Origin: Deltaproteobacteria bacterium CG03_land_8_20_14_0_80_45_14
Lineage (GTDB): Bacteria; Desulfobacterota; BSN033; UBA1163
Reading direction: 5' to 3'
NCBI GenBank assembly: GCA_002780715.1
Contig: PEUO01000041.1
Location: 1-34,826, forward strand
DNA length: 34,826 bases
Positions 6,357 through 26,919 of this stretch are shown piece by piece (the stretch's first letter is position 1; each line of letters opens with the position of its first letter). The notes beneath the pieces are model-generated. The model made no database searches. It was not told the DNA's origin and saw only the letters and a program-made list of their open reading frames with translations. Made by a program: the position numbers and the translations under genes.

Positions 6357-6626
6357 TTACTTCCGTAGACCTAACTTATCGATGACCGTTCGATATCGGT
6401 CCACTTTGTTTTCTTTAAGGTAGTTGAGGAGTCTCCTCCGCTGCCCAACCAATTTAAGGAGACCCCTGCGAGAGTGATGGTCTCGTTTGTGTATTTTAAA
6501 GTGTTCTGTCAGATATCGAATCCTTTCGCTGAGAAGAGCGATTTGAACCTCCGGGGAACCCGTGTCCCGTTCGTGGTTTTTAAACTGTTCGATGATCTCT
6601 TTTTTCTTTTCCTGAACAAGTGTCAT
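6357..6626 (-). CDS. rpsO: 30S ribosomal protein S15
   Basis: [51 protein letters not shown]. Confidence 0.98.
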
Positions 6627-6643
6627 GAAATCCTCCTTTTAAA

Positions 6644-7627
6644 CTAAACGTGATCTTCCGTCGGGTATCGTTCTTGGGGTTGAAACACTCTTAACGGGCG
6701 AAGGGCCACGACTTCTGGATTTGCCCAGGGAATATCCGCCCCCTTCACTTCTGATTTTAAAATGGCCACCAACCCATCCCGAGGAGAGGACATCTTGAGC
6801 CATTCCCCTTTTTCGAAGGCTGGAAGGGTCTGTGGAGTAAGATCTTGAACCATCATCTCCTTCCCAGAGCGCACTTTCTCCACCAATTGTTCGTCCCCGA
6901 TCATCTCGGGTAAACTGGGCAAGGCCGCACTCAAAGAAATCAACCACGGTTGAAGGGCATCGGGTTTGGAGATATCCTTTAACCTTTCCCAGGAGATCGC
7001 TTGCTCGAGCGTGAAAGGGCCGCTCCGAGCCCTCCTCAGACGAAGAAGGTGGGCCCCACATCCTATCTTTCTTCCAAGATCTCTTCCCAGGGTGCGGATG
7101 TAAGTTCCTTTTGAGCAAGAAACTTTAAAATGGACAAGGGGGAGCTCAATTTCCTCCATTTGAATATTATAAATTTCTACTTCTCTCTCTTTCCGTCCAA
7201 CCTCGATCCCTTTTCTGGCTAATCGATAAAGGGGTTTCCCCTGCATTTTAATGGCCGAAAACATGGGAGGGGTCTGACGAATCTTCCCTAAAAATGTATG
7301 GATGACACCCTCAATCTTTTCTGCCGGAACTCCCTCCCATGGTTGTTTCAGGACAACCTTACCGGTCCAGTCATCTGTGGTGGTTTCCTCCCCTAACTTG
7401 AGGGTCGCTCCATATTCCTTAGGACCTTCCCTTAAAAAGGGAACCAATTTCGTTCCCTCGTTGATGACAATAGGCAAAACGCCTGTGGCAAAGGGATCAA
7501 GGGTTCCGATATGGCCTGCCTTCTTAATGCCAAATCGATGTTTGATCTCTCTGACCACATCGAGGGAGGTGATCCCTTCAGGTTTATCCACAATGAGGAG
7601 GCCATCAATTCCCCTCTTCATCCCCAT
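6644..7627 (-). CDS. truB: tRNA pseudouridine(55) synthase
   Basis: GLLIVDKPEGITS, GHIGTLDPFATGVLPI, KGTYIRTLGRDLG. Confidence 0.96.
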   Translation of the reverse strand: MGMKRGIDGLLIVDKPEGITSLDVVREIKHRFGIKKAGHIGTLDPFATGVLPIVINEGTKLVPFLREGPKEYGATLKLGEETTTDDWTGKVVLKQPWEGVPAEKIEGVIHTFLGKIRQTPPMFSAIKMQGKPLYRLARKGIEVGRKEREVEIYNIQMEEIELPLVHFKVSCSKGTYIRTLGRDLGRKIGCGAHLLRLRRARSGPFTLEQAISWERLKDISKPDALQPWLISLSAALPSLPEMIGDEQLVEKVRSGKEMMVQDLTPQTLPAFEKGEWLKMSSPRDGLVAILKSEVKGADIPWANPEVVALRPLRVFQPQERYPTEDHV

Positions 7628-7979
7628 TCGGCTCCTTTTCCTGATGGATGCTTTGGATTAACTCTTCCATATGAATCGCATACTCAATGGAGGGATCGAA
7701 TTGAAACAGTATCTCAGGAGTATACCTCAGCCGGATCCGCCGACCCAATTCTTTTCGGACAAATCCCTTGGCGCTGTCCAGACCCTTTATGGACCTCTCC
7801 CTCTCTTGCGGGGTTCCTGCCACGCTGAAATAGACTTTTGCAAACCGGCAATCCTCAGAAACAGTCACCTTGGTGATCGTGACAAAACCAATACGAGGAT
7901 CTTTGATCGACTTCACCAGCATTTGGGAGATTTCTTTCCGAATCAAATCAGCTACTTTTTCTGAACGTTTTCCTTCCAT
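7605..7979 (-). CDS. rbfA: 30S ribosome-binding factor RbfA
   Basis: RSEKVADLIRKEISQML...DPRIGFVTITKVTVSEDCRFAKVYFS. Confidence 0.95.
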   Translation of the reverse strand: MEGKRSEKVADLIRKEISQMLVKSIKDPRIGFVTITKVTVSEDCRFAKVYFSVAGTPQERERSIKGLDSAKGFVRKELGRRIRLRYTPEILFQFDPSIEYAIHMEELIQSIHQEKEPNGDEEGN

Positions 7980-7996
7980 CCGAACCTTTAAAATAA

Positions 7997-8284
7997 TTAT
8001 ACCGTAATGATTTCAATTTCTGTTTGCACCATCTCGACGAGGTGCATCTGCTCAATAAAGTTAACGATGTTATCCAAGCTCGAATTGATATGCCGTCGAT
8101 CATTCCCAACTGTACAGAAACCAATCTGCGCCCGTTGCCATAGGTCATTATCCCCGACTTCTGAAATGGCCACATTAAAACGGTGTCTTACCCGATCAAT
8201 CAGTTTGCGAAGCACATGTCGTTTTTCTTTCAAAGAATGATTTTCTGGAATCCGAAGATCGAGTTGACAAATTCCGATCACCAT
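7997..8284 (-). CDS. DUF503 family protein (YlxP-like)
   Basis: MVIGICQLDLRIPENHSLKEKRHVLRKLIDRVRHRFNVAISEVGDNDLWQRAQIG. Start moved from the ORF-track 8329 to the internal Met at 8284, where family homology begins. Confidence 0.88.
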   Translation of the reverse strand: MVIGICQLDLRIPENHSLKEKRHVLRKLIDRVRHRFNVAISEVGDNDLWQRAQIGFCTVGNDRRHINSSLDNIVNFIEQMHLVEMVQTEIEIITV

Positions 8285-8379: not shown

Positions 8380-10884
8380 TCAGGCTAACCGAGCTTTTAC
8401 TTCTTCCATCTCGTAAGACTCGATGACATCCCCGAGTTTAATATCATTAAAATTCTCAATGCCGATACCACACTCAAGCCCTTGGCTACAATCCTTCATA
8501 TCGTCTTTGAATCGCCTGAGTGAAGAAATCCGGCCGTCATAGACGACGACATTGTCTCGCAGTAATCTCGCATGGGTTCCTTTGACGACTTTCCCATCTA
8601 TCACGAGACTGCCTGCCACGGCTCCCACTTTGCGGATGTTAAAAACCTGTATCACCTGTGCCCTTCCCAAGATATGTTCTTTGTAAGTGGGCTCAAGTAA
8701 TCCTTCCAAGGCATTCTTAATATCGGTGATCGCATCATAGATCACGGAATAAGTCCGGACATCGACATGTTCCTGCTCTGAGAGAGACTGAGCTTTCGGA
8801 CCCGGCCTCACATTAAAGCCAATGATGATCGCATTGGAAGCCGAAGCTAAATTCACATCGGTCTCTGTAATCCCGCCGACCGCATCATGAAGGATATTGA
8901 CCTTTACAGCATTCGTGGAGAGCTTTTTCAATGCCTCTTTCACGGCCTCGATGGATCCCTGGACATCTGCCTTAATAATGACATTCAGTTCTTTTACTTC
9001 CCCCTTCTTAATCTTATCATAGAGCTCCTCTAAGGAGACCTTGCTCAACTTTGAAAGTTCCTTTTCACGAATTTTTTCTTGTCGATAGAGGCTGATCTGT
9101 TTGGCCATCCTCTCTTCGGAGACAACGATGAACGTCTCCCCTGCCTCTGGAATATCGGTAAAACCCACCACCTCCACCGGGATAGAGGGACAAGCTTCTT
9201 CTATCTTCTGCCCTTTATCATTCAGCATCGCTCTGACCCTACCATAGTGCGAACCTGCGAGGAAGGCATCCCCTGTTTTCAACATTCCCTCCTGCACGAG
9301 GAGGGTTGCCACGGGACCTCTTCCTTTGTCCAATTTCGCTTCGATAATGACCCCTCGAGCAGGTTTGTCTGGATTGGCCCTTAATTCTAAAACCTCTGCC
9401 TGGAGGAGGATTAAATCCAGCAACTCTTTAATCCCTGTCTTCTGTTTGGCCGATACCTCAGTAAAAAGGGTATTCCCACCCCATTGCTCCGGGACGAGCC
9501 CATATTCCGAAAGGTCTTTCTTCACCTTTTCGGGGTTTGCGATCGGTTTATCAATCTTATTAATGGCGACCACAATTGGAACTTTGGCAGCTCGCGCATG
9601 ATCGATCGCCTCCTTTGTTTGTGGCATCATCCCATCATCCGCAGCGACCACCAAAACGACCACGTCTGTCACCTGAGCTCCTCTTGCCCTCATAGCGGTA
9701 AAGGCTTCATGACCGGGGGTGTCAATAAAAACCACATGCCCATTCTCTAATTCAACATCATAGGCCCCGATGTGCTGGGTGATTCCTCCGGCTTCCCCTC
9801 CCATCACATTCGTTTTTCTTATTGAATCCAAAAGCATGGTCTTTCCATGATCCACATGGCCCATGATCGTGACTACGGGGGGTCTGGGTTTCAACTGTTC
9901 GGGGAGGTCCTCTTTTCTTTCCAATAGCTCTTGGCGCTCCAAGGAGACTTTCTCCACCTCGTAGCCAAACTCGCTGGCCACCAGAGAGGCGACATCCGCA
10001 TCAATGAGCTGGTTGATATTTACCAGCACACCCATTTCCATCAACTTCTTAATCAATTCTCCACCTTTGACGCCCATCCTTTTTGCAAGATCCCCAACAG
10101 CGATGACTTCAGCGATTCGAATGATTCTTTTAATGGGTTTGGGGATAGTCACCTCTGTCTTCTTCGGCGTCCTTAATACCACCTTCTTCTTCATAGGTCG
10201 GAAGGACCTGAATCTGGGTTCGACCCCTTTCCCTTCACCTTTTTCTCCTTCGACCTCATCTTCCCCCAACATCCTTTCTTCAATTCTCTTTCTCTTTTTT
10301 ATAAACCCCTTTTTCTTCGCAAGGGGCCCCAATCTTTCTTTCTCCAATAATTCTTCTTTTTCCAGTAGCTTCACCTCAACCTTTTTTAGAGGAGCTTCCT
10401 TCGGTTTAAGCTCTTCAGCCTCTTTCTTGCCTTCTGCTATTTCCCCCGCTTCTTCAAGGGTAACCTGGGTTGGCACTGCCCCGATCGATCTTGGGGGGAG
10501 GATCTTTTTCTCTTCAGCCTTTTCCGAAATTTTCGGCTCGGTTTCGGCCTTTCCTTCTTTCTCTTTTGCTTTTGGAATCTTTCCACTTACCACCTCAGTG
10601 GCAACCTCGGGCTCGACGACAGCCAATAGAGGAGGTGGGGCCTCCACTTTAACTTTTAGGGTTCTTACCCTTCTCCGAATCACGGTGGGTTTGACCCGCT
10701 TCTCAACGATTTCTTTCTCAGAGTCCCTTTCGATAATCTTCTCATCAAAGGAGGAGACCTTTTTTTCAGGTTCGGTAAGTTTCTTATCTTTTACCTTCAC
10801 CCCCATTCGTTTCAATTTCATAAGCAGTTTGTCATCCCCCATCCCGACTTCGCGTGCAAGATCGAGGACTTTACTCTTTGTCAT
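8380..10884 (-). CDS. infB: Translation initiation factor IF-2
   Basis: Lys/Glu-rich N-terminus; [16 protein letters not shown] (G1), [15 protein letters not shown] (G3), NKID (G4). Confidence 0.98.
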
Positions 10885-16382: not shown

Positions 16383-16769
16383 TTATTCTGAAAGACTTTT
16401 TAAAAAATTTTTTAAAATGCTGAGGTCTTCAGGGGAGATATCCATAAACCTTACTCCGCATCGGTAATCTCCCCACCCTTTCCCCAAATGGATATCCATC
16501 CAAACTACCTCTGCCAATACTTCGATGGAATTCAAACGAGAACCTGAAGCAAAAAAGAGTTTAATTTTGAGCTGTTGACCAATTTCTATCTCTTGTGAAA
16601 GATAAACCAACAATCCACCCCCACTGGCATTGAGGGCTCGGCCTGTTTGGGTGATGGATGAGGGGATGAGATGGTACTCTATCGGCAAATCGATTGAAAA
16701 TCGGGGATGTCTCCTCCTTTCTAAATTTGCCACCCCCACATGGGATTTCGTTTCTTGTTTTTCTGTCAC
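16383..16769 (-). CDS. PilZ domain protein (c-di-GMP binding candidate)
   Basis: ERRRHPRFSIDLPIEY...ALNASGGGLLVYL...GVRFMDISPEDLSIL (RxxxR and [D/N]xSxxG motifs). Overlaps the upstream gene by 4 nt. Confidence 0.88.
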   Translation of the reverse strand: MTEKQETKSHVGVANLERRRHPRFSIDLPIEYHLIPSSITQTGRALNASGGGLLVYLSQEIEIGQQLKIKLFFASGSRLNSIEVLAEVVWMDIHLGKGWGDYRCGVRFMDISPEDLSILKNFLKSLSE

Positions 16770-18721
16770 TCTCTCATCCCTTTTTCTGATGGGTTAAAGT
16801 GAACATAAAGTCTTGAACAGAATACTTCGAAGAGACACCCCTCGCACTGTGGTTGGATAGGGAAACAATGTCCTCCTCGTTCTTCTTCCCTTCCCATCCA
16901 GGCCATCGGTTCCTCGACCTTCACAGGATTCTGAGGAAAAGCCTCTTTCGTAAAAGATTGGATTTTAATATCTCCCATCGAATTCCTACCTTGATAAGTG
17001 TCGAAATGGGGATCCACAATGCCTAATCGAGAGGCGACTCTATAAATACCTTCCCCAATGATGATTGGAGTATCGGAAAAATCAACCTCCACGACATCCG
17101 GAATCAATTCGTTAATCCATTGGATCGCTATTCGGCTGTTTTGATGACCCATATGGGGGATGACTTGAATCAACTGTTCCAAATCAAAGGCGTTCCAATA
17201 ATTTTTTTCAAGGATAACCTTTCCGATCTGCTGGACCTTAGGGAGTGCTCGATGAAATAGGTCTCTCCAAACTTCTCCAGATACAAAGGGTGTCCCCTCA
17301 AAAGGTGGCAGGTCATCAAGGAGGAGATTCGGTTGAACGATGAGTCGGAATACCCTTTGGGTGTTTTCCAATGCTTTGATAGATTGGCGCTCTTGATCAA
17401 ACCGGGAATGAACCAATATGGTCAAAAGGGCATGAAGGGAATTTTTAAATTCACCCTCCTTTCGACATTCCCCAAACCACATCGAAAAAATATCACGAGG
17501 TCTTTGATAATAAGTTTCCACTGCCTCTCTAAAATACTCTATCCAAGAGAATGAAGGAAGCCCCCCTTTTTCTATTGTCTCTTCTTTGGTTACCTCTTCT
17601 TTCCTTTGTTCTGCCTTTTCTTCACCCTCGGCTTCTCCGGTGGTCCCAGAAATATCCTCTAGCAATTGGGTGGCTTCTTCAAATACTGAAGCTTCAAGGC
17701 GCGACGCTTCAGCCACTTCCTCTTTATCAGAATCCAGTTCTAAATCGTCCAAAGCTGTTTTTTCTTCTTCTTTTTCTTTTGTTTTTTCTTCTTCTGCTTC
17801 TTCTTTCAATTCATCTGAAACAGTTGGAATAAATCCTTGAATGGTCTCGTCCTCAACGGCTTTCTCTAATTCTTCCCCTTCTTGGCACCCATTCTCCATT
17901 GGCACACCCGAGGGGAGCTCCAAAACTTTTTCTGAAGGTTCAAATGTCGCCTCTGCGGAAGTTTCCTCGAGATTGAGTGAAAGGGGTTCCTCTGCAGCCC
18001 CTTCCCCATCTTTTCCCTTCTCCTCTCTGTTCTCCTCGACATGCAGGAAAGGGCTCTCTGGTTCAGCGGAGAAAGGCGACCGCTCATCTTGGTCTTTTAT
18101 CTCCACCTCCACCCACTCCCTCTTTTTCCTTTTATCCACCGCTGGAATAGGTTGTCCAGAAGAATTCTTAAATGCAACGGAAATCCTTTTAATAAAAATG
18201 TCCCCTTCAAAGACTACCTTAAAGGGAGAAGTTTCTCCTGCTGGGAGAGGGTTAATGGGGAGGGGAGTTTCTTCAAAGGTAATAAATTCTTCAAGATCTC
18301 CAAAAAGTTGAATCAGCGCCCAAATATCATTTAAAGTCTCATCCGATATATTTTCCACCCTTCCTGTGACACTCCATGTTCCTCTTTGCGTCTTCCGGAG
18401 ATAGGAGGACTCCAAGGCCAACTGATGGGGGACCAATTCCTGGAATTCGAGAGAGATGGGCGGGAAATTCCTTCTTTCTTCAACAGAGACCGTTGCTCCG
18501 AAAGACTTAAGGGTTTTGGCAAGCATTTCTGCTTTTTTTAAAGAGAGATTTTTTTTGAGGATGATAGGACAACGGTCAACAATCTTTTTTAATAGAAGAA
18601 AGGGAATACTAAAGGTTTTAGAAAGATTATGACAGAAGGGACTTTTTTCTTCTTCGGTGTTATCTCCGATTCCGATGAGGAGGACTCTATATCTCCCTTC
18701 TTCCTGATTTAATCCAACCAT
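16766..18721 (-). CDS. Multidomain protein: L7/L12-CTD-like N-terminus, FxLYD-like domain, long Glu/Lys-rich linker, C-terminal HhH-GPD/endonuclease III-like domain with Fe-S motif
   Basis: VDRCPIILKKNLSLKKAEMLAKTLKSFGATVSVEE; WSVTGRVENISDETLNDIWALIQLFG; acidic linker; SLHALLTILVHSRFDQERQSIKAL, VEVDFSDTPIIIGEGIYRVASRLGIVD, C-FPIQPQ-C-EG-C-LFEVF-C (C-X6-C-X2-C-X5-C). SD AAAAGG upstream. Confidence 0.8.
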   Translation of the reverse strand: MVGLNQEEGRYRVLLIGIGDNTEEEKSPFCHNLSKTFSIPFLLLKKIVDRCPIILKKNLSLKKAEMLAKTLKSFGATVSVEERRNFPPISLEFQELVPHQLALESSYLRKTQRGTWSVTGRVENISDETLNDIWALIQLFGDLEEFITFEETPLPINPLPAGETSPFKVVFEGDIFIKRISVAFKNSSGQPIPAVDKRKKREWVEVEIKDQDERSPFSAEPESPFLHVEENREEKGKDGEGAAEEPLSLNLEETSAEATFEPSEKVLELPSGVPMENGCQEGEELEKAVEDETIQGFIPTVSDELKEEAEEEKTKEKEEEKTALDDLELDSDKEEVAEASRLEASVFEEATQLLEDISGTTGEAEGEEKAEQRKEEVTKEETIEKGGLPSFSWIEYFREAVETYYQRPRDIFSMWFGECRKEGEFKNSLHALLTILVHSRFDQERQSIKALENTQRVFRLIVQPNLLLDDLPPFEGTPFVSGEVWRDLFHRALPKVQQIGKVILEKNYWNAFDLEQLIQVIPHMGHQNSRIAIQWINELIPDVVEVDFSDTPIIIGEGIYRVASRLGIVDPHFDTYQGRNSMGDIKIQSFTKEAFPQNPVKVEEPMAWMGREEERGGHCFPIQPQCEGCLFEVFCSRLYVHFNPSEKGMRE

Positions 18722-18735
18722 GATGTACCTTTTAT

Positions 18736-18819
18736 GCCGAGCAGTTTTTCCCTAAACCATATCGAGGGAGATTTTTAGTCGCCTTCTATAGGATGAAAAA
18801 TTTAGGGTCCCCTCTCGGC
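18736..18819 (-). promoter_or_regulatory. Candidate structured 5' leader RNA
   Basis: Two perfectly nested inverted repeats: GCCGAG/CTCGGC (18736-18741, 18814-18819) and CCCTAAA/TTTAGGG (18750-18756, 18801-18807), ending ~14 nt upstream of the 651-aa CDS start. Confidence 0.55.
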
Positions 18820-18944
18820 TATCCCCGAACAGACCTGATTCATTTTTTCTCCTTATTTTTAAACAATTTTTCAAAATAGTTCAACATATTTTTTATCTAG
18901 CCCTATGGCTTTATAAAAATATTTTTATTCCCCTCAATATTTTT

Positions 18945-19346
18945 TTATTTTCCCACCTCTTTCAATAAAGTCGTTAACCGACTAAAGTCTTTTTCTTCTA
19001 TATATTGAAACTGCAATCCATATCGGTGCTCGCCCCAACTTTCCCTGGCAGCCAAATCACACCAGACCACTTTGGCCACCGCTTTAACCGTGTCCAATTC
19101 TAAGCCTCTTACATAAAATATCTCAATTTTCAATAAAGTTCCTATCGCGACCCTTTCGGGTAGATAGACGAGAAGTCCCCCCTCGCTTGCATTCGCTACC
19201 ATCCCTCCAAAGGTTTCTTTCCCATCAACACGGGAATAATCTAGGGGCAGCTCGACACTAAACCTTGGATGTTTCCTCTTTTCAATCGAGAGGACACCCA
19301 TTTTGGTTTGTGAGGCAGATTGATTTTGTTGATTCATTTTGTACAT
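18945..19346 (-). CDS. PilZ domain protein, paralogue of 16383..16769
   Basis: IEKRKHPRFSVELPLDYSRV...VANASEGGLLVYLPERVAIG...YGLQFQYIEEKDFSRL. Confidence 0.88.
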   Translation of the reverse strand: MYKMNQQNQSASQTKMGVLSIEKRKHPRFSVELPLDYSRVDGKETFGGMVANASEGGLLVYLPERVAIGTLLKIEIFYVRGLELDTVKAVAKVVWCDLAARESWGEHRYGLQFQYIEEKDFSRLTTLLKEVGK

Positions 19347-20533: not shown

Positions 20534-21256
20534 TTAACCCAAACCGTTCTTCTTCACTCCTCGCACTACTTCCGATGGAAATCCGAGTTGGGATACAAAT
20601 TCCCTGTGAAATTCTCTAAACCCTATCTTTTCGAGAAAAGGTTGGGCCATGACCCCTCTGCATCCAGCTAAGAGAGGTGGCCTTAGTTTATAAATCCCTT
20701 CATAAATTTGATTCAACCATCTCTCCCCTTTTGTCATGTTGGCTAAAATGATTCTGCCCCCATCTTTTAGAACTCTTTTAAATTCCAAAAGAATGGGAAT
20801 GAAATCTTCAACAGGAAGGATGTCCAAGAGATATTGGCTCATGATGACATCAAACGTTTCGTCCTCGAAAGGAAGATGCCGACAATCGCAGAGATGGAGG
20901 GTATAATTCCTTTGTTTTGTTTTAAAAATTCTTTTTCTTGCCTTCTCCACCATTTTCATGGAGACATCGATTCCATCCACCCATCCATTCTGATTCCTCT
21001 TCAGTATCTCCACAAAATTGAGTCCGGTTCCAAGGGCAACTTCCAAAACTTTTTCTCCGTTCTGAATTGCAGCGATCTCTAATGCCCTTTGACGAGCTTT
21101 TGACTCCATCAAAATTCCAAACAAATCATAGACCGGAGCAATCCAATTATATTTCCGAATAAGTTCTTGATGTGTGTATCTTGCCTCTAAAATCTCTTGT
21201 TTCATTGATAGACTCCCGTGACTCATGTGAGGGCTTTTAACCCCACTATTCCCCAT
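20534..21256 (-). CDS. Class I SAM-dependent methyltransferase (UbiE/methyltransf_11-like)
   Basis: VLEVALGTGLNFVEIL, DGIDVSMKMVEKAR, LPFEDETFDVIMSQYLL, FKRVLKDGGRIILANM. Start may be an internal Met. Confidence 0.9.
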   Translation of the reverse strand: MGNSGVKSPHMSHGSLSMKQEILEARYTHQELIRKYNWIAPVYDLFGILMESKARQRALEIAAIQNGEKVLEVALGTGLNFVEILKRNQNGWVDGIDVSMKMVEKARKRIFKTKQRNYTLHLCDCRHLPFEDETFDVIMSQYLLDILPVEDFIPILLEFKRVLKDGGRIILANMTKGERWLNQIYEGIYKLRPPLLAGCRGVMAQPFLEKIGFREFHREFVSQLGFPSEVVRGVKKNGLG

Positions 21257-21286: not shown

Positions 21287-21314
21287 ATTATAGGATTTGA
21301 AGGAGAAGAGTCAA
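21287..21314 (-). promoter_or_regulatory. Candidate sigma70-type promoter for the methyltransferase gene
   Basis: Minus strand TTGACT (21314-21309) - 16 nt - TATAAT (21292-21287); -35 overlaps the stop codon of the VWA gene. Confidence 0.6.
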
Positions 21315-22984
21315 GATTTTTTTATATGAGTCGGGTTAAAATAATCCCTTATCCTTCCGAGAACAAGGTGGGGGATATCTTCTTTTCGTTTGACCGTATA
21401 GATGCTGATGTTTTTCCTTTTCTCAACAGCCTTTTCAAATCGGGCTGCATAAGGGTTGTCTCCAATGTGAACGGCCGTCACCCGGTTTTGGATCTGTCCA
21501 AAAAATCCGATCAATGCCTCAAGGTTGGTAATTTTCATATCGGTAATGATGAAGAGATCCAAGTTTTTCTTCCCCTGGGTCAATGGGATTAAATCCTCTA
21601 AGTCCAACGCCGTCCCACCCCCAAAATATTTACAAAGAACGCGGTAGATGTCCTCTCGCTGGTCTGTATAATTCAAAATATCCTTTCCCCCCATCGGGGC
21701 ATCACTGAAATTATAGATAGCTACTTTTGAACCATTTTGAAGATAGGCATTGGTGGCACAGGCTGCTCCCAGAACAGCATAGGAGAGGCTTTTTCGAGGG
21801 TTGATCATACTTCCTGAAGAATCGATGGCAATTAAGCAATCGGGAGTGCCTTCCATTTTTCCTCTCCCTTTCCCCTCTCTTTTCGTCCAAATCTGAGTGA
21901 TACCTGGCATGATCTTCCCAAAACTGGTCCAAATATCCACGTCTTGAAAAGGTGACCCAATCTCCCAGGGAGAATGAGAATGTGGATGGAGGGACCCTTT
22001 TTCTTCCAAAGGGACTTTCTTGATAGGGATCGAATAATTTTCCGCCAGCTTCATATAGAAAAGGATGTCTGCATCGATGGGACTCCCTTGACCTCTCCCC
22101 ATCCCTCCTTCCATTCCATAACCCGCCCCTTTTAATTCGTCGGAAAAGTCCTCCACGACATCTTTGAATTCGGACAAAACCATGGTCTGCCTTGCATAAT
22201 CCCTTAAACCCTGATCGATCTCTTCGTTGGAATAGTGGTTCAAATAGTCCTCCCCTTGAGGATTGTGTTCCCCTTTCCCTCCCTTGCTCCCTTGTTGTTT
22301 CTGTTCTTCAACGAGAAGGGGTTTGAGAGAGCGGGCAAACTTTCGGATACTCTCTCCCCATCGTGAGCGATCCAAATAGGGAATTCGTGCAAGTCTTCGG
22401 ACAATATCTGCGTGTCCTTTCACGCTCATCTTGGAAGGCGGAATTCCCAAATCGATTCCCCAAATCTTTTGGTAAAGGAAAGCGATCACTTCCTCGATCG
22501 TCCCTTTTTTCAGGTTTCGATGTAATTCTGGAATCTCCGTAAACCTCTTTCTAACACAATGGGTATCCGCAATGACATCGATAAAGTAATTGGACATCTG
22601 TTTGGCCAATTCCTTATCGCCCACCACTTTCTTTGCCTCTGCATAAAGCCTGAGATGTGTATGGAAATCCCATGGGCAGAAGGTGTAATGGGTAATCCCA
22701 TGATCGAGAAGAGCCTCGATGACTCTTTTTTCAGGCATCTTGTCTTTCATTTGTGAAACAAAAGCACCATTGATGGTCATCTGCTTCTGTTTCATCTCCA
22801 ACCCAACGCCTTCTCCCTCTTCACCCTCACCCTGCTCCGGGTCAGGGATCCCCTTGACCTTGGGCATAGGGATCTCAGGATAGAGATGTTTTCTCCTCAA
22901 CTTGGGCCAAATCTCTTCAATGATCGATTGATAATGTTGTTCTTCCATCCTTAATCGCTGAGGTTCAACAAATCTTCTCTTCAT
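21311..22984 (-). CDS. VWA (von Willebrand factor A) domain protein, MoxR-partner type
   Basis: CLIAIDSSGSMINPRKSLSYAVLGA (MIDAS DxSxS), YFGGGTALDLEDLIP, DLFIITDMKITN. Confidence 0.9.
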   Translation of the reverse strand: MKRRFVEPQRLRMEEQHYQSIIEEIWPKLRRKHLYPEIPMPKVKGIPDPEQGEGEEGEGVGLEMKQKQMTINGAFVSQMKDKMPEKRVIEALLDHGITHYTFCPWDFHTHLRLYAEAKKVVGDKELAKQMSNYFIDVIADTHCVRKRFTEIPELHRNLKKGTIEEVIAFLYQKIWGIDLGIPPSKMSVKGHADIVRRLARIPYLDRSRWGESIRKFARSLKPLLVEEQKQQGSKGGKGEHNPQGEDYLNHYSNEEIDQGLRDYARQTMVLSEFKDVVEDFSDELKGAGYGMEGGMGRGQGSPIDADILFYMKLAENYSIPIKKVPLEEKGSLHPHSHSPWEIGSPFQDVDIWTSFGKIMPGITQIWTKREGKGRGKMEGTPDCLIAIDSSGSMINPRKSLSYAVLGAACATNAYLQNGSKVAIYNFSDAPMGGKDILNYTDQREDIYRVLCKYFGGGTALDLEDLIPLTQGKKNLDLFIITDMKITNLEALIGFFGQIQNRVTAVHIGDNPYAARFEKAVEKRKNISIYTVKRKEDIPHLVLGRIRDYFNPTHIKKS

Positions 22985-22986
22985 CT

Positions 22987-23754
22987 TTAGTAATAAAGAT
23001 TGGGATACCGCACTTTTCCTGGATAAACGAGTTTATCCCTCTCGTAGACCTTCCCCTCGACAATATTTCCAAGCCCCCTAACCCTTCCCCCTACATAAAT
23101 TTCTCCTCCCATCATCCATTCACCCGTATGGAGGCCGATGTTCTTCTTGATCAAAATTTTTCCCCCCCTCATCCCTGCCCCTGTCCAGTTCTTTGAATTT
23201 CCCTCAATGACTAACTCCCCCCCCTCAAGGCCAATGCCCGTGAAATCGCCGGTATCTCCCTCGATCATCAATCGCTTTCCTTTTGAAAGTCGAAATCCAA
23301 TGAGATTGATCTCTGTCTTCAGCTCAGAAAGCTTGAGGACGATCTCTTCTTCCATTGCGTAGTTACATAATGCAGAAATGTAGACGCCGGCTGGTCCTGG
23401 GATGAGATACGGAATCCTTTGGGTGTTCTCTAAAGCAAAGCAAAAGTCTTCAATATCCTCTGCCGTATAATCGACCTCCCTTACATATTTCTCCGCCACC
23501 TCATAAGCCTTGATGATCGTATTGTATTGCACCATCCAGACAAGTTCCTTGGCCTCCTCTTCTAAAAGTTTCTCGTATCCCCGGCGGATCCGATCCATCA
23601 CCGCCTCGGTGGATTGGACAATCTGATCCAGGGGGAGGTCAGGGGTGGGGGCAGCAAAGGTTTTAAATTCCTCAAAGGGATTCTTGGTTATCCAGCTTTC
23701 TTTGTCTGGGGGGAGAATGGAACTCTTTTTTGGCGGGGTGGGGGATTTCATCAT
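22987..23754 (-). CDS. GXGXG-motif beta-helix protein (glutamate synthase alpha C-terminal/FwdC-like fold)
   Basis: GDFTGIGLEGGELVIEGNSKNWTGAGMRGGKILIKKNIGLHTGEWMMGGEIYVGGRVRGLGN. Confidence 0.8.
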   Translation of the reverse strand: MMKSPTPPKKSSILPPDKESWITKNPFEEFKTFAAPTPDLPLDQIVQSTEAVMDRIRRGYEKLLEEEAKELVWMVQYNTIIKAYEVAEKYVREVDYTAEDIEDFCFALENTQRIPYLIPGPAGVYISALCNYAMEEEIVLKLSELKTEINLIGFRLSKGKRLMIEGDTGDFTGIGLEGGELVIEGNSKNWTGAGMRGGKILIKKNIGLHTGEWMMGGEIYVGGRVRGLGNIVEGKVYERDKLVYPGKVRYPNLYY

Positions 23755-23799
23755 TAAATCTAGCCTCTCAAAAACACGATAGAAAAAAACGTTCCCGCC

Positions 23800-25140
23800 T
23801 TAGCTCCTTCGGGTATCGATGTCTTTTTTAACTTCCACATAAAGGGGGTGATCCCCTTCCAAGGGTTCCAAATCCCCCCCTTGAAAAACCTTCGATCCGA
23901 CCGCCAAGGCATCTTTCAGATGTTCGCTCTGTTCTCGATATCTCTGAGAAACTGTTTTCACCGCTTCCTTTGCAAGAAAAATAGGGAAGGGATCATCCCT
24001 TTTCGATCTCTCTTTCTGAGAAAGGACCTCGTCCTTCCATTGGATCCGATGGGCCAACGTATAGGGAATGACTGCCTTGATATGTTCGATGTCGATCTCA
24101 GAATCCTCCATCAACCATGCCAATCCCTGCGCATACTGCTTTATAGAGGAAGGGAGTCGATTGGAGGCACAATTTTTAATTTGGCGGCAGAGATATTCCG
24201 TATAGTGACACCCCTCTTCACAGTTTTCGACAACCCGTTTCTGCCCATACCGTTCACAGAAAGACAATTCAGCGAGAAGCATTCGAGTAAAGGCGCTGGC
24301 ATCGAGGTCCAACTCTAAACTTTCCATCTCTGCACGAATTTGATCACGGTCTTGTCTCTGAAAGGACTTGACCCCTAATACTTCATCAAGATATTCCCCG
24401 TAGGCATTACAAACTTCTTCCATTTTAGAAATCTTCCTCTCATAAGCGATCTTGTATTTCAGAATGTGATAAAGCTCCTTTTCATACTTCGAATGTCTAA
24501 GGATATGATCTTTTCGCTTATCCTTCCCAATGAGAAAAGAAAGATTGGCCCCAGGGTATCTCGACTCCACCATGACATCGAATCGATCCACCAGAGGAGC
24601 GATGATGGTATTGGTCCCTCCATCTTGATAATTGGCGGTGGCAAAAAGACAGTATTCCTCGTTAATGATCATCTCATTGAGGTATTCCCAATTCCCTCGA
24701 TCCACCCCATCCAGGATCATGCTCTGTTTGGTTTCTGGAAGGCGATTGATCTCATCCACAATTTTTACTGGGATTTGGGAAAAATTGGTCCACACCACAT
24801 CCTCCTCGCCTCGATTCAATCTGCCCAGATCCGGTCTGCCAATAATTTTTTCCTCTGTTTGTTCCGGGTGCCCTGAAACCTCACTCCCCCAAATCACGCC
24901 CAATGGAAATTGGTAGATGAGGGAGCAGACATATTCTGCGGAGGTTGTCTTCCCCAACCCTGGTTCTCCAATAATCAATTCCTTTCCCTTCTTCAGGCCG
25001 GTAAGAAGGCTTAGCAGGATCGCCGAATTAAAACGCTCTCCTTTAATTTCTATATCTGGACGGTTGAAGTAGAGATGGTCGCTGATAAATTGGTATATTT
25101 CCATTGCTTGTTTCCGATACCCGTTCTTTTCCACGCCCAC
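23800..25140 (-). CDS. MoxR-type AAA+ ATPase
   Basis: Walker A GEPGLGKTT, Walker B PVKIVDEINRLPETKQ, sensor region LFATANYQDGGTNTIIAPLVDRFDVMVE. Confidence 0.92.
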   Translation of the reverse strand: MGVEKNGYRKQAMEIYQFISDHLYFNRPDIEIKGERFNSAILLSLLTGLKKGKELIIGEPGLGKTTSAEYVCSLIYQFPLGVIWGSEVSGHPEQTEEKIIGRPDLGRLNRGEEDVVWTNFSQIPVKIVDEINRLPETKQSMILDGVDRGNWEYLNEMIINEEYCLFATANYQDGGTNTIIAPLVDRFDVMVESRYPGANLSFLIGKDKRKDHILRHSKYEKELYHILKYKIAYERKISKMEEVCNAYGEYLDEVLGVKSFQRQDRDQIRAEMESLELDLDASAFTRMLLAELSFCERYGQKRVVENCEEGCHYTEYLCRQIKNCASNRLPSSIKQYAQGLAWLMEDSEIDIEHIKAVIPYTLAHRIQWKDEVLSQKERSKRDDPFPIFLAKEAVKTVSQRYREQSEHLKDALAVGSKVFQGGDLEPLEGDHPLYVEVKKDIDTRRS

Positions 25141-25485: not shown

Positions 25486-26919
25486 TTAAACATTCGTCTC
25501 AAAGCTCTCCAAGTTTCCTTCTAGGGTCAGGGCACGCCGAGCAGCCCGTCCTAATTCCTTATCAAAACGATGGGTCGGGGCATAGACTCGGCAAATGGCC
25601 ACTTTTGCTGGGATATATTGAAATAGTCTTTTCAGGGGTTCCCTCGATATTCTTTTCGACCCCGGATCAAAGATCAGAAGGGTCCCCTCCTTTGATTCAT
25701 GCCAGGGATTGAGGGGCCTCGGGTCATGGTGAGCCATATCGACGTGGAATTCTAGCTCTTTCAGGCGTTTCGGTAAAAAGGCTTTGATCCTCTGTTTCAC
25801 CTCTTCGGGTTTTAAAAAAATCGGTCGTCCCATTTCCATCTCTCTTAGGGTGAGTTTTTCCTCAAAGACACTACTCCATTTCAACTTTCTCAAAAGCACT
25901 TCAGCCCACTTCTCTCCCAATTGCCTTTCCCGAGGCGATAAAGATCCTTTCCACTCCGATACCTTCTCCATCACAAACCAGTCTGTGAGCGAGAGGTATC
26001 GGTCTATCTCCTCCAAAGGATGAAACGGGCATAGAATCTCCATCGTCTCTTTAAATATTTCCTGAAGCTGAAGATCAATGGAACGGGTGGTGCGGTGATA
26101 ATAAACATTTGAGTAAAGATAGAGACGCGCATTGAGAAACATGGCCAATGCATCCATTCCTCTTTTATCCAAAGTCAATCCCTCTTGGCGAAAGGAGGTG
26201 TAGTAAAGGAGTCTCCTCCAATCCACCGGACCGATGGAAACCCCGGTCATATAGGCATCTCGCAACACATAATCGATATTATCGAAGGTAAAGATTCCTC
26301 GAAAGAGTTGCTGGAGGAAGTCCAACCATCTCGGATGTTTTCTTCCCTCCTTCTTTTGAGGCCTCTTGATGAGGAAGGCAACCTGCTCCGGATCAATGAC
26401 TTCTGCTTTTTTAAACAGACCGTGGGGACTTCGCCGGATTCCCTTTAAAAGGGGAGAAATTTTTTCTCGGATGAGATGCTGACCTATCTCCTCATGATTC
26501 GTTTTGAACCGAAAAAGATATTGGTCATCAAAAAAATGGCAGAAGGGGCCATGTCCGATATCATGGAGGAGCCCAGCCAGGCGAAGGAGTTCCTCTACAT
26601 AGGGGAAAGAGGGAAGGTCTGCTTTGAAAATCTTGAAGAGAAAGGGATAAAGCTGTTCAGAAAAAGTCCCCGCGACATGCATGGTCCCAAGAGAGTGTTG
26701 AAAACGAGTATGCTCGGCTGTGGGAAATACCCAGCGAGCGCTCTGTAGTTGAAAGATGCGTCGAAGGCGCTGGACCCAGGGGGTATCGATCACACCCCTT
26801 TCTGTTTCCTCCCCTTCTATCCGGTCGGTCATCACAATGTAATGATAAACGGGGTCTGCGATCAATCCGGTCCCCTGAGTGTTCTCTGCCTCTTTCATGT
26901 CCCTGAGACCTTTTTTCAT
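25486..26919 (-). CDS. HD-domain phosphohydrolase (dNTPase/SAMHD1-like family)
   Basis: [71 protein letters not shown]. Confidence 0.92.

Follow-up and report, generated by a model that had tools for sequence, protein, structure and literature searches.

Within a 34,826-nucleotide stretch of contig PEUO01000041.1 from Deltaproteobacteria bacterium CG03_land_8_20_14_0_80_45_14, referred to here as the window, three genes on the reverse strand (21311-25140) encode, in transcription order, a MoxR-type AAA+ ATPase, a protein with a GXGXG beta-solenoid, and a protein with a von Willebrand factor A (VWA) domain. The trio is a real module, found in identical sets of genomes and mostly in one gene order. 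On balance, the three products are somewhat likely to act as one ATP-driven remodelling complex of the NorQD kind, in which the GXGXG protein would be a dedicated client or adaptor that docks through an N-terminal tag. The motor is of a known kind, while the GXGXG partner appears to be new, as do the archaeal arrays of tagged proteins that adjoin related motors.

Co-occurrence and gene order

The preliminary description of this region, made from the sequence alone, reported three open reading frames in the order ATPase-GXGXG-VWA with 2 nt between the last two; order, strand, and coordinates are exact, and the first two genes are separated by 45 nt. In a sample of 198 genomes from the phylum of the window (thresholds of E < 1e-100 for the ATPase and E <= 1e-14 for the GXGXG protein), the ATPase, GXGXG, and VWA genes are present in the identical 26 genomes, which is far beyond chance. 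The phylum of a Latescibacteria chromosome served as a second sample of 64 genomes, with the ATPase in 18, the VWA protein in 17, the GXGXG protein in 18, and all three in 16; in the partial sets of G415, G436, and G437, the matches reach or approach a contig end, as judged from coordinates. Of the 65 named loci in which the ATPase is nearly complete and the sequence extends 2.6 kb or more past it downstream, 62 have the three genes on one strand in the order of the window, and the exceptions (L132, L139, and L153) have the GXGXG-VWA pair elsewhere in the same genome. The trio, whose conservation elsewhere had been left to a neighbourhood survey, is therefore kept together well beyond the window.

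Departures from this layout retain the genes. The complete chromosome of G215 has all three, with the ATPase ~3 Mb from the GXGXG-VWA pair. A deep branch (L060 and L061) has the order ATPase-VWA-GXGXG, and its VWA-GXGXG order is also seen in L059 and L062, with the ATPase elsewhere in the genome of L059. Both forms of the trio occur as separate loci in two genomes, G004 (L061, which is G004:C138, and L018) and G163 (L062, which is G163:C140, and L077).

Values of dN/dS, the ratio of nonsynonymous to synonymous substitution rates, are 0.03-0.08 for all three genes and thus indicate purifying selection on each. Pairwise distances among 63 relatives correlate across the trio (r = 0.93-0.97); this shows co-inheritance and is by itself no proof of interaction. 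The closest named relatives are Syntrophaceae / Thermodesulfobacteriota (Desulfobacterota) metagenome bins. Searches of viral and plasmid collections gave no relatives of the trio, which argues against an origin from a mobile element.

The ATPase and the VWA protein

By curated Pfam thresholds, the domain labels of the preliminary description are weak. Only AAA_5, AAA, and AAA_lid_2 reach their cut-offs in the window proteins (for the ATPase, AAA_5 passes at 26.8 bits against 22 and AAA_lid_2, at 22.7 bits, lies at its cut-off), while GXGXG (24.3 bits, cut-off 32.5) and VWA_2 (14.9 bits, cut-off 27) fall below theirs. The labels nevertheless hold, with support from family members, of which 20/20 match GXGXG and 18/19 match VWA_2, from the metal ion-dependent adhesion site (MIDAS), and from the predicted structures, so that the identity of the set as a MoxR-type AAA+/VWA pair with a GXGXG protein is borne out by motifs, relatives, and folds.

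In addition to its Walker motifs, the ATPase has a sensor 1 Asn and Arg residues that are invariant in 35/35 relatives. A PDB sequence search with the single window ATPase gave no match; with the ATPase profile, the uncharacterised structure 2r44 ranks first, followed by Mg-chelatase subunits. The GHPEQTEEK block (35/35) is followed by the sequence GRPDL (amino acids 101-105), a GRxxL motif that resembles the GRxLL of NorQ. In NorQ, this motif is in the helix-2 insert (H2i) and contacts the finger of NorD (PMC13036017), and the two motifs may be equivalent. The AlphaFold2 model of the VWA protein (mean predicted local distance difference test score, pLDDT, of 81.6) has many solved VWA domains among its Foldseek matches, one of them that of NorD in the NorQD complex (9qhe_G, E 5.7e-5). 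The MIDAS residues D388, S390, S392, T458, and D482 are shared by every one of the 37 sequences in the alignment (with one unreadable letter at D388), and the modelled beta-rich arm at amino acids 305-379 may serve as a finger.

Both proteins have a further site, missed in the preliminary description, that likely binds metal. In the lid region of the ATPase, C295, C307, C311, and H312 are present in 35/35 relatives and C318 in 33/35, and this Cys4(+His) set is possibly a Zn or Fe-S site. It is kept in the deep branch and in several archaeal relatives and lost in other archaeal ones. In the VWA protein, the residues are HxxxH...D, with the first His in the position of an HExxH motif; at position 96, the 37 sequences of alignment A5 have Gly in 23, Ala in 12, and Glu in 2, and Cys is found at position 103 in 37/37. 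The window protein (HGITH) does not have the catalytic Glu of HExxH. The motif is intact in 14/14 archaeal VWA partners adjoining the ATPase and also in the deep bacterial branch, and is likewise carried by L060, L061, L156, and L158, which suggests that the N-terminal domain is related to an HExxH metallopeptidase-like domain and that the clade of the window has lost the peptidase Glu. Since the ligand His and Asp are kept while the position of the catalytic Glu is lost, the window protein probably holds a metal without cutting.

The intact motif raises ATP-dependent proteolysis as an explanation. The HExxH form of archaea and deep bacteria would then be a real peptidase to which the solenoids deliver substrates, with the window clade either an inactive pseudo-enzyme or dependent on another catalytic residue, and the tagged archaeal paralogues described below do resemble interchangeable adaptors. 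However, the Glu is replaced by Gly or Ala in 35/37 sequences, that of the window included, and no Pfam peptidase family matched any of the VWA proteins scanned (window, relatives, and archaeal). Proteolysis is quite unlikely as a general account, and a peptidase role is plausible, on the motif, for the HExxH forms only. The metallopeptidase-VWA proteins of COG3864/DUF2201 likewise carry their VWA domain behind an HExxH-type one, and the VWA parts align with that of the trio (hhalign E 3.5e-6). In contrast, hhalign leaves the N-terminal domains unaligned (three DUF2201 sequences), the window protein has lost the Glu, and DUF2201_N (PF13203) matches neither the VWA protein of the window nor any of 18 relatives and five archaeal ones. 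DUF2201 was rejected as the parent family, as only the VWA part aligns.

The GXGXG protein and the archaeal arrays

GXGXG is the only convincing domain match for the third protein, and the best Foldseek matches of its beta-solenoid are FwdC/FhcC and glutamate synthase, the proteins that the preliminary description had named for this fold. The picture of a bare beta-helix does not stand: a predicted-disordered arm (amino acids 1-40) holding the sequence NPFxxF is followed by four helices and then the solenoid. Because NPFxxF is nearly invariant within a disordered arm, the protein may dock on the motor through this tag, and the suggestion that it is a client scaffold or an adaptor remains the leading idea. 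In FwdC/FhcC and glutamate synthase the same fold is part of an enzyme, while in the trio the helical domain and the NPFxxF arm replace that context, and no Fwd, Fhc, or Glt neighbours were seen. Identity as formylmethanofuran dehydrogenase subunit C was rejected, since the TIGR03122 score of 54.6 bits falls short of the 130.65-bit cut-off.

Resemblance to FwdC, a subunit of a W/Mo enzyme, is also one of the observations that would fit a chaperone for metal or cofactor insertion, a theme raised in the preliminary description. In this explanation, an unlinked enzyme would receive a metal or Fe-S cofactor from the machine, in the way of NorQD, CoxDE, or MoxR, and the GXGXG protein would either belong to that enzyme or act as a carrier. 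The conserved Cys4(+His) of the ATPase and the HxxxH...D and invariant Cys103 of the VWA protein are compatible with such a role, and the top structural matches of the VWA protein include NorD, whose role is in iron insertion. As the preliminary description stated for the window, however, there is no metalloenzyme nearby, and across 20 extended loci neither a metalloenzyme nor a cofactor gene is conserved beside the trio. The failure of the GXGXG protein to reach the FwdC cut-off and the many solenoid variants of the archaeal arrays, which are unlike one enzyme subunit, also argue against it. Metal insertion has no direct support and is retained as an unlikely rival.

Arrays of tagged proteins beside one motor were missed in the preliminary description. 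The 80 best ATPase loci include one in a Woesearchaeota record (L158), and 18 of the 194 genomes of its phylum have an ATPase match at E < 1e-30. Among twenty archaeal loci examined, 14 have the VWA protein within the same stretch. In several, two to ~10 paralogues, mostly solenoid-type, form an array beside one motor, with ~10 members in L158/L163 (only two with a clear GXGXG part), four in L207, six each in L208 and L209, seven in L215, and three in L199. Each array has its own shared N-terminal tag, based on predicted starts, examples being RQF in L163, VEDIVxQYEGL in L208, KPEEK in L209, GIEKRE in L215, and DKLLK in L199. R, Q, and F are the sole invariant residues across the ten L163 members. 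In four of the five arrays compared, pairwise identity is 50-61% in the tag region and 20-33% in the rest. Tag patterns and regions were picked by eye after reading the sequences, so these counts are descriptive and not a test. Aligned with hhalign against the GXGXG family of the window, the arrays of L163 (E 5e-12), L208 (E 1.5e-6), and L215 (E 3.4e-6) show homology. If varied solenoids share the tag of their cassette, then the tag may be an address and the rest the variable part.

Two further observations concern archaeal loci. A frame change toward the 3' end (8628-8698) interrupts the ATPase gene of L158. In L210 (4643-8035), two tagged proteins bracket the VWA gene, with a near-identical N-terminus of 28 amino acids and a more divergent remainder, and these are not evidently solenoids.

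The diversified arrays could also point to a conflict or defence system akin to the MoxR-vWA-VMAP ternary systems, with solenoids as sensors or effectors; ternary MoxR-vWA layouts with a variable third component have been described as conflict systems (PMC7159879, PMC10907252). This is very improbable for the trio, which has no PADLOC match, no relatives among the viruses and plasmids searched, and no trypsin, caspase, or TIR effector domains seen in domain scans, while the window copy is amid housekeeping genes and kept across its family.

A conserved fourth gene that might be the target was sought in the 20 extended loci, and none was found beyond family level. The HD-domain hydrolase-like gene (25486-26919) and the class I methyltransferase gene (20534-21256) that adjoin the trio in the window recur within the family only, and these and other flanking genes were rejected as targets, being common to the same family only. 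The deep trio of L060 is followed on the same strand by genes for Ku and an ATP-dependent DNA ligase (6411-8180), which are associated with non-homologous end joining; they were rejected as linked partners, since L059, L061, and L062 do not have them. Elsewhere in the window, two PilZ-domain genes (16383-16769 and 18945-19346; the span 16383-19346 is on the reverse strand) bracket a protein of 651 amino acids with a weak match to the ribosomal L7/L12 C-terminal domain, and seemingly similar clusters with several related small proteins are found in L063 and L065. Coordinates of the trio and its features are collected in Table 1.

Table 1. Features of the three genes, in window coordinates (aa, amino acids of the encoded protein).
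Feature	Coordinates	Strand	Basis
MoxR-type (clade 7) AAA+ ATPase, 446 aa, GTG start	23800..25140	-	Pfam AAA_5, AAA_lid_2; invariant Walker A/B, sensor, and Arg in 35 relatives
Walker A GEPGLGKT, aa 58-65	24946..24969	-	G58, G63, K64, T65 invariant 35/35
Putative helix-2 insert region GHPEQTEEKIIGRPDL, aa 90-105	24826..24873	-	GHPEQTEEK, R102, P103, L105 invariant
Walker B (..VDE), aa 125-130	24751..24768	-	D129, E130 invariant 35/35
Cys4(+His) site C295-x11-C307-x3-C311-H312-x5-C318, lid region	24187..24258	-	conserved residues
Third component: GXGXG protein, 255 aa	22987..23754	-	GXGXG 2.6e-5; TIGR03122 54.6 bits (below cut-off); AlphaFold2 mean pLDDT 82.7
N-terminal tag N25-P-F-x-x-F30	23665..23682	-	N, P 36/37; both F 37/37; pLDDT ~55-59
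Helical domain, aa 41-132, including TAEDIEDFC and GPAGVYISALCN	23359..23634	-	DSSP of model; hhalign homology in archaeal arrays
GXGXG beta-solenoid, aa 137-244	23023..23346	-	pLDDT mostly >90; Foldseek best FwdC/FhcC, glutamate synthase
VWA partner protein with N-terminal zincin-like domain, 557 aa	21311..22984	-	motifs, AlphaFold2 model, Foldseek
N-terminal helical/zincin-like domain, aa 8-234	22283..22963	-	AlphaFold2 model; HExxH in archaeal homologues
Candidate metal site H95-G-I-T-H99 (HExxH position, Glu to Gly)	22688..22702	-	H95, H99 37/37
D136, candidate third ligand	22577..22579	-	37/37
Beta-rich arm ahead of VWA core, aa 305-379, candidate finger	21848..22072	-	modelled strands 324-339, 364-379; Foldseek match to NorD
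C-terminal VWA domain, aa 381-549; MIDAS D388-S-S-G-S392, T458, D482	21338..21844	-	Foldseek, alignment

Known MoxR-VWA systems and a proposed mechanism

Several described systems pair a MoxR ATPase with a VWA protein. The ring motor of NorQD is reported to rotate the VWA protein by means of a finger inserted in the pore and to remodel the linker of that protein, and this has been proposed to open up the target so that metal can be inserted (PMC13036017). Like the trio, NorQ/NorD and CbbQ/CbbO (PMC13036017, PMC9976466) combine a MoxR-clade ATPase with a VWA protein that has an N-terminal domain, an arm ahead of the VWA core, and a DxSxS-T-D MIDAS; in the trio, the arm is predicted and the GRxxL motif lies near a putative helix-2 insert. 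The trio differs in not being in an operon with a target enzyme, in its conserved third gene, in the Cys4 site of the ATPase, and in the HxxxH/HExxH zincin-like N-terminal domain of the VWA protein. RavA-ViaA is likewise a MoxR ATPase and VWA partner in a free-standing operon without its target (PMC3893208), a likeness taken from its published description, but no GXGXG partner has been reported for it. The MoxR-vWA-VMAP ternary conflict systems (PMC7159879) also have three parts, the third thought to be restructured by the motor; however, that protein has peptidase or nucleotide-cyclase domains, while in the trio it is a tagged beta-solenoid, and the loci seen here are not in defence-type contexts. 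The combination of MoxR with GXGXG, which the preliminary description had called unusual, and the DPANN arrays were not found described in the openly licensed papers searched.

In the proposed mechanism, the AAA+ protein would be a ring motor and the VWA protein its lever, as NorD is to NorQ, with the arm ahead of the VWA core entering the pore of the ring and the MIDAS binding the target by an acidic group. As a dedicated third subunit, the GXGXG protein would be either the client or an adaptor that binds the target. Its flexible NPFxxF would dock it on the motor, and the docked solenoid would then be remodelled itself or would grip a further target. A single archaeal motor would serve a family of mostly solenoid-type proteins that share the N-terminal tag of their cassette.

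Several observations weigh against this mechanism. The correlated divergence of the three genes is expected for any co-inherited genes, and the overall Foldseek TM-scores of the VWA model are low because most of the query is outside the VWA fold. NPFxxF and the archaeal tags differ in sequence, so their equivalence is an analogy; the L207 array, whose members are near-copies over their full length, has no excess of identity in the tag region (71 vs 70%); and the link of L209 to the GXGXG protein is weak (hhalign E 3.7e-4, probability 36%). Many archaeal ATPases lack the Cys4 site, which is therefore not essential to a general mechanism.

A broader proposal, put forward tentatively and with more doubt than confidence, is that these loci represent an undescribed class of modular AAA+ machine, in which an ATPase ring with a VWA-metallopeptidase(-like) lever would be addressed by short, cassette-specific tags at the N-terminus of interchangeable beta-solenoids. 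Such a machine would have expanded into arrays in DPANN archaea, whereas Desulfobacterota, Latescibacterota, and others would have a reduced form with a single solenoid and a pseudo-peptidase.

MoxR-VWA motors are widespread, yet how they recognise their clients is poorly understood. In the trio, the third partner is encoded adjacent to the motor, always retained with it, and has an apparent docking tag, so client recognition is directly testable with three proteins. The change from HExxH to HGxxH provides a natural series, possibly from peptidase to pseudo-enzyme, and the archaeal arrays suggest a general principle of an address plus a variable solenoid in organisms with very small genomes.

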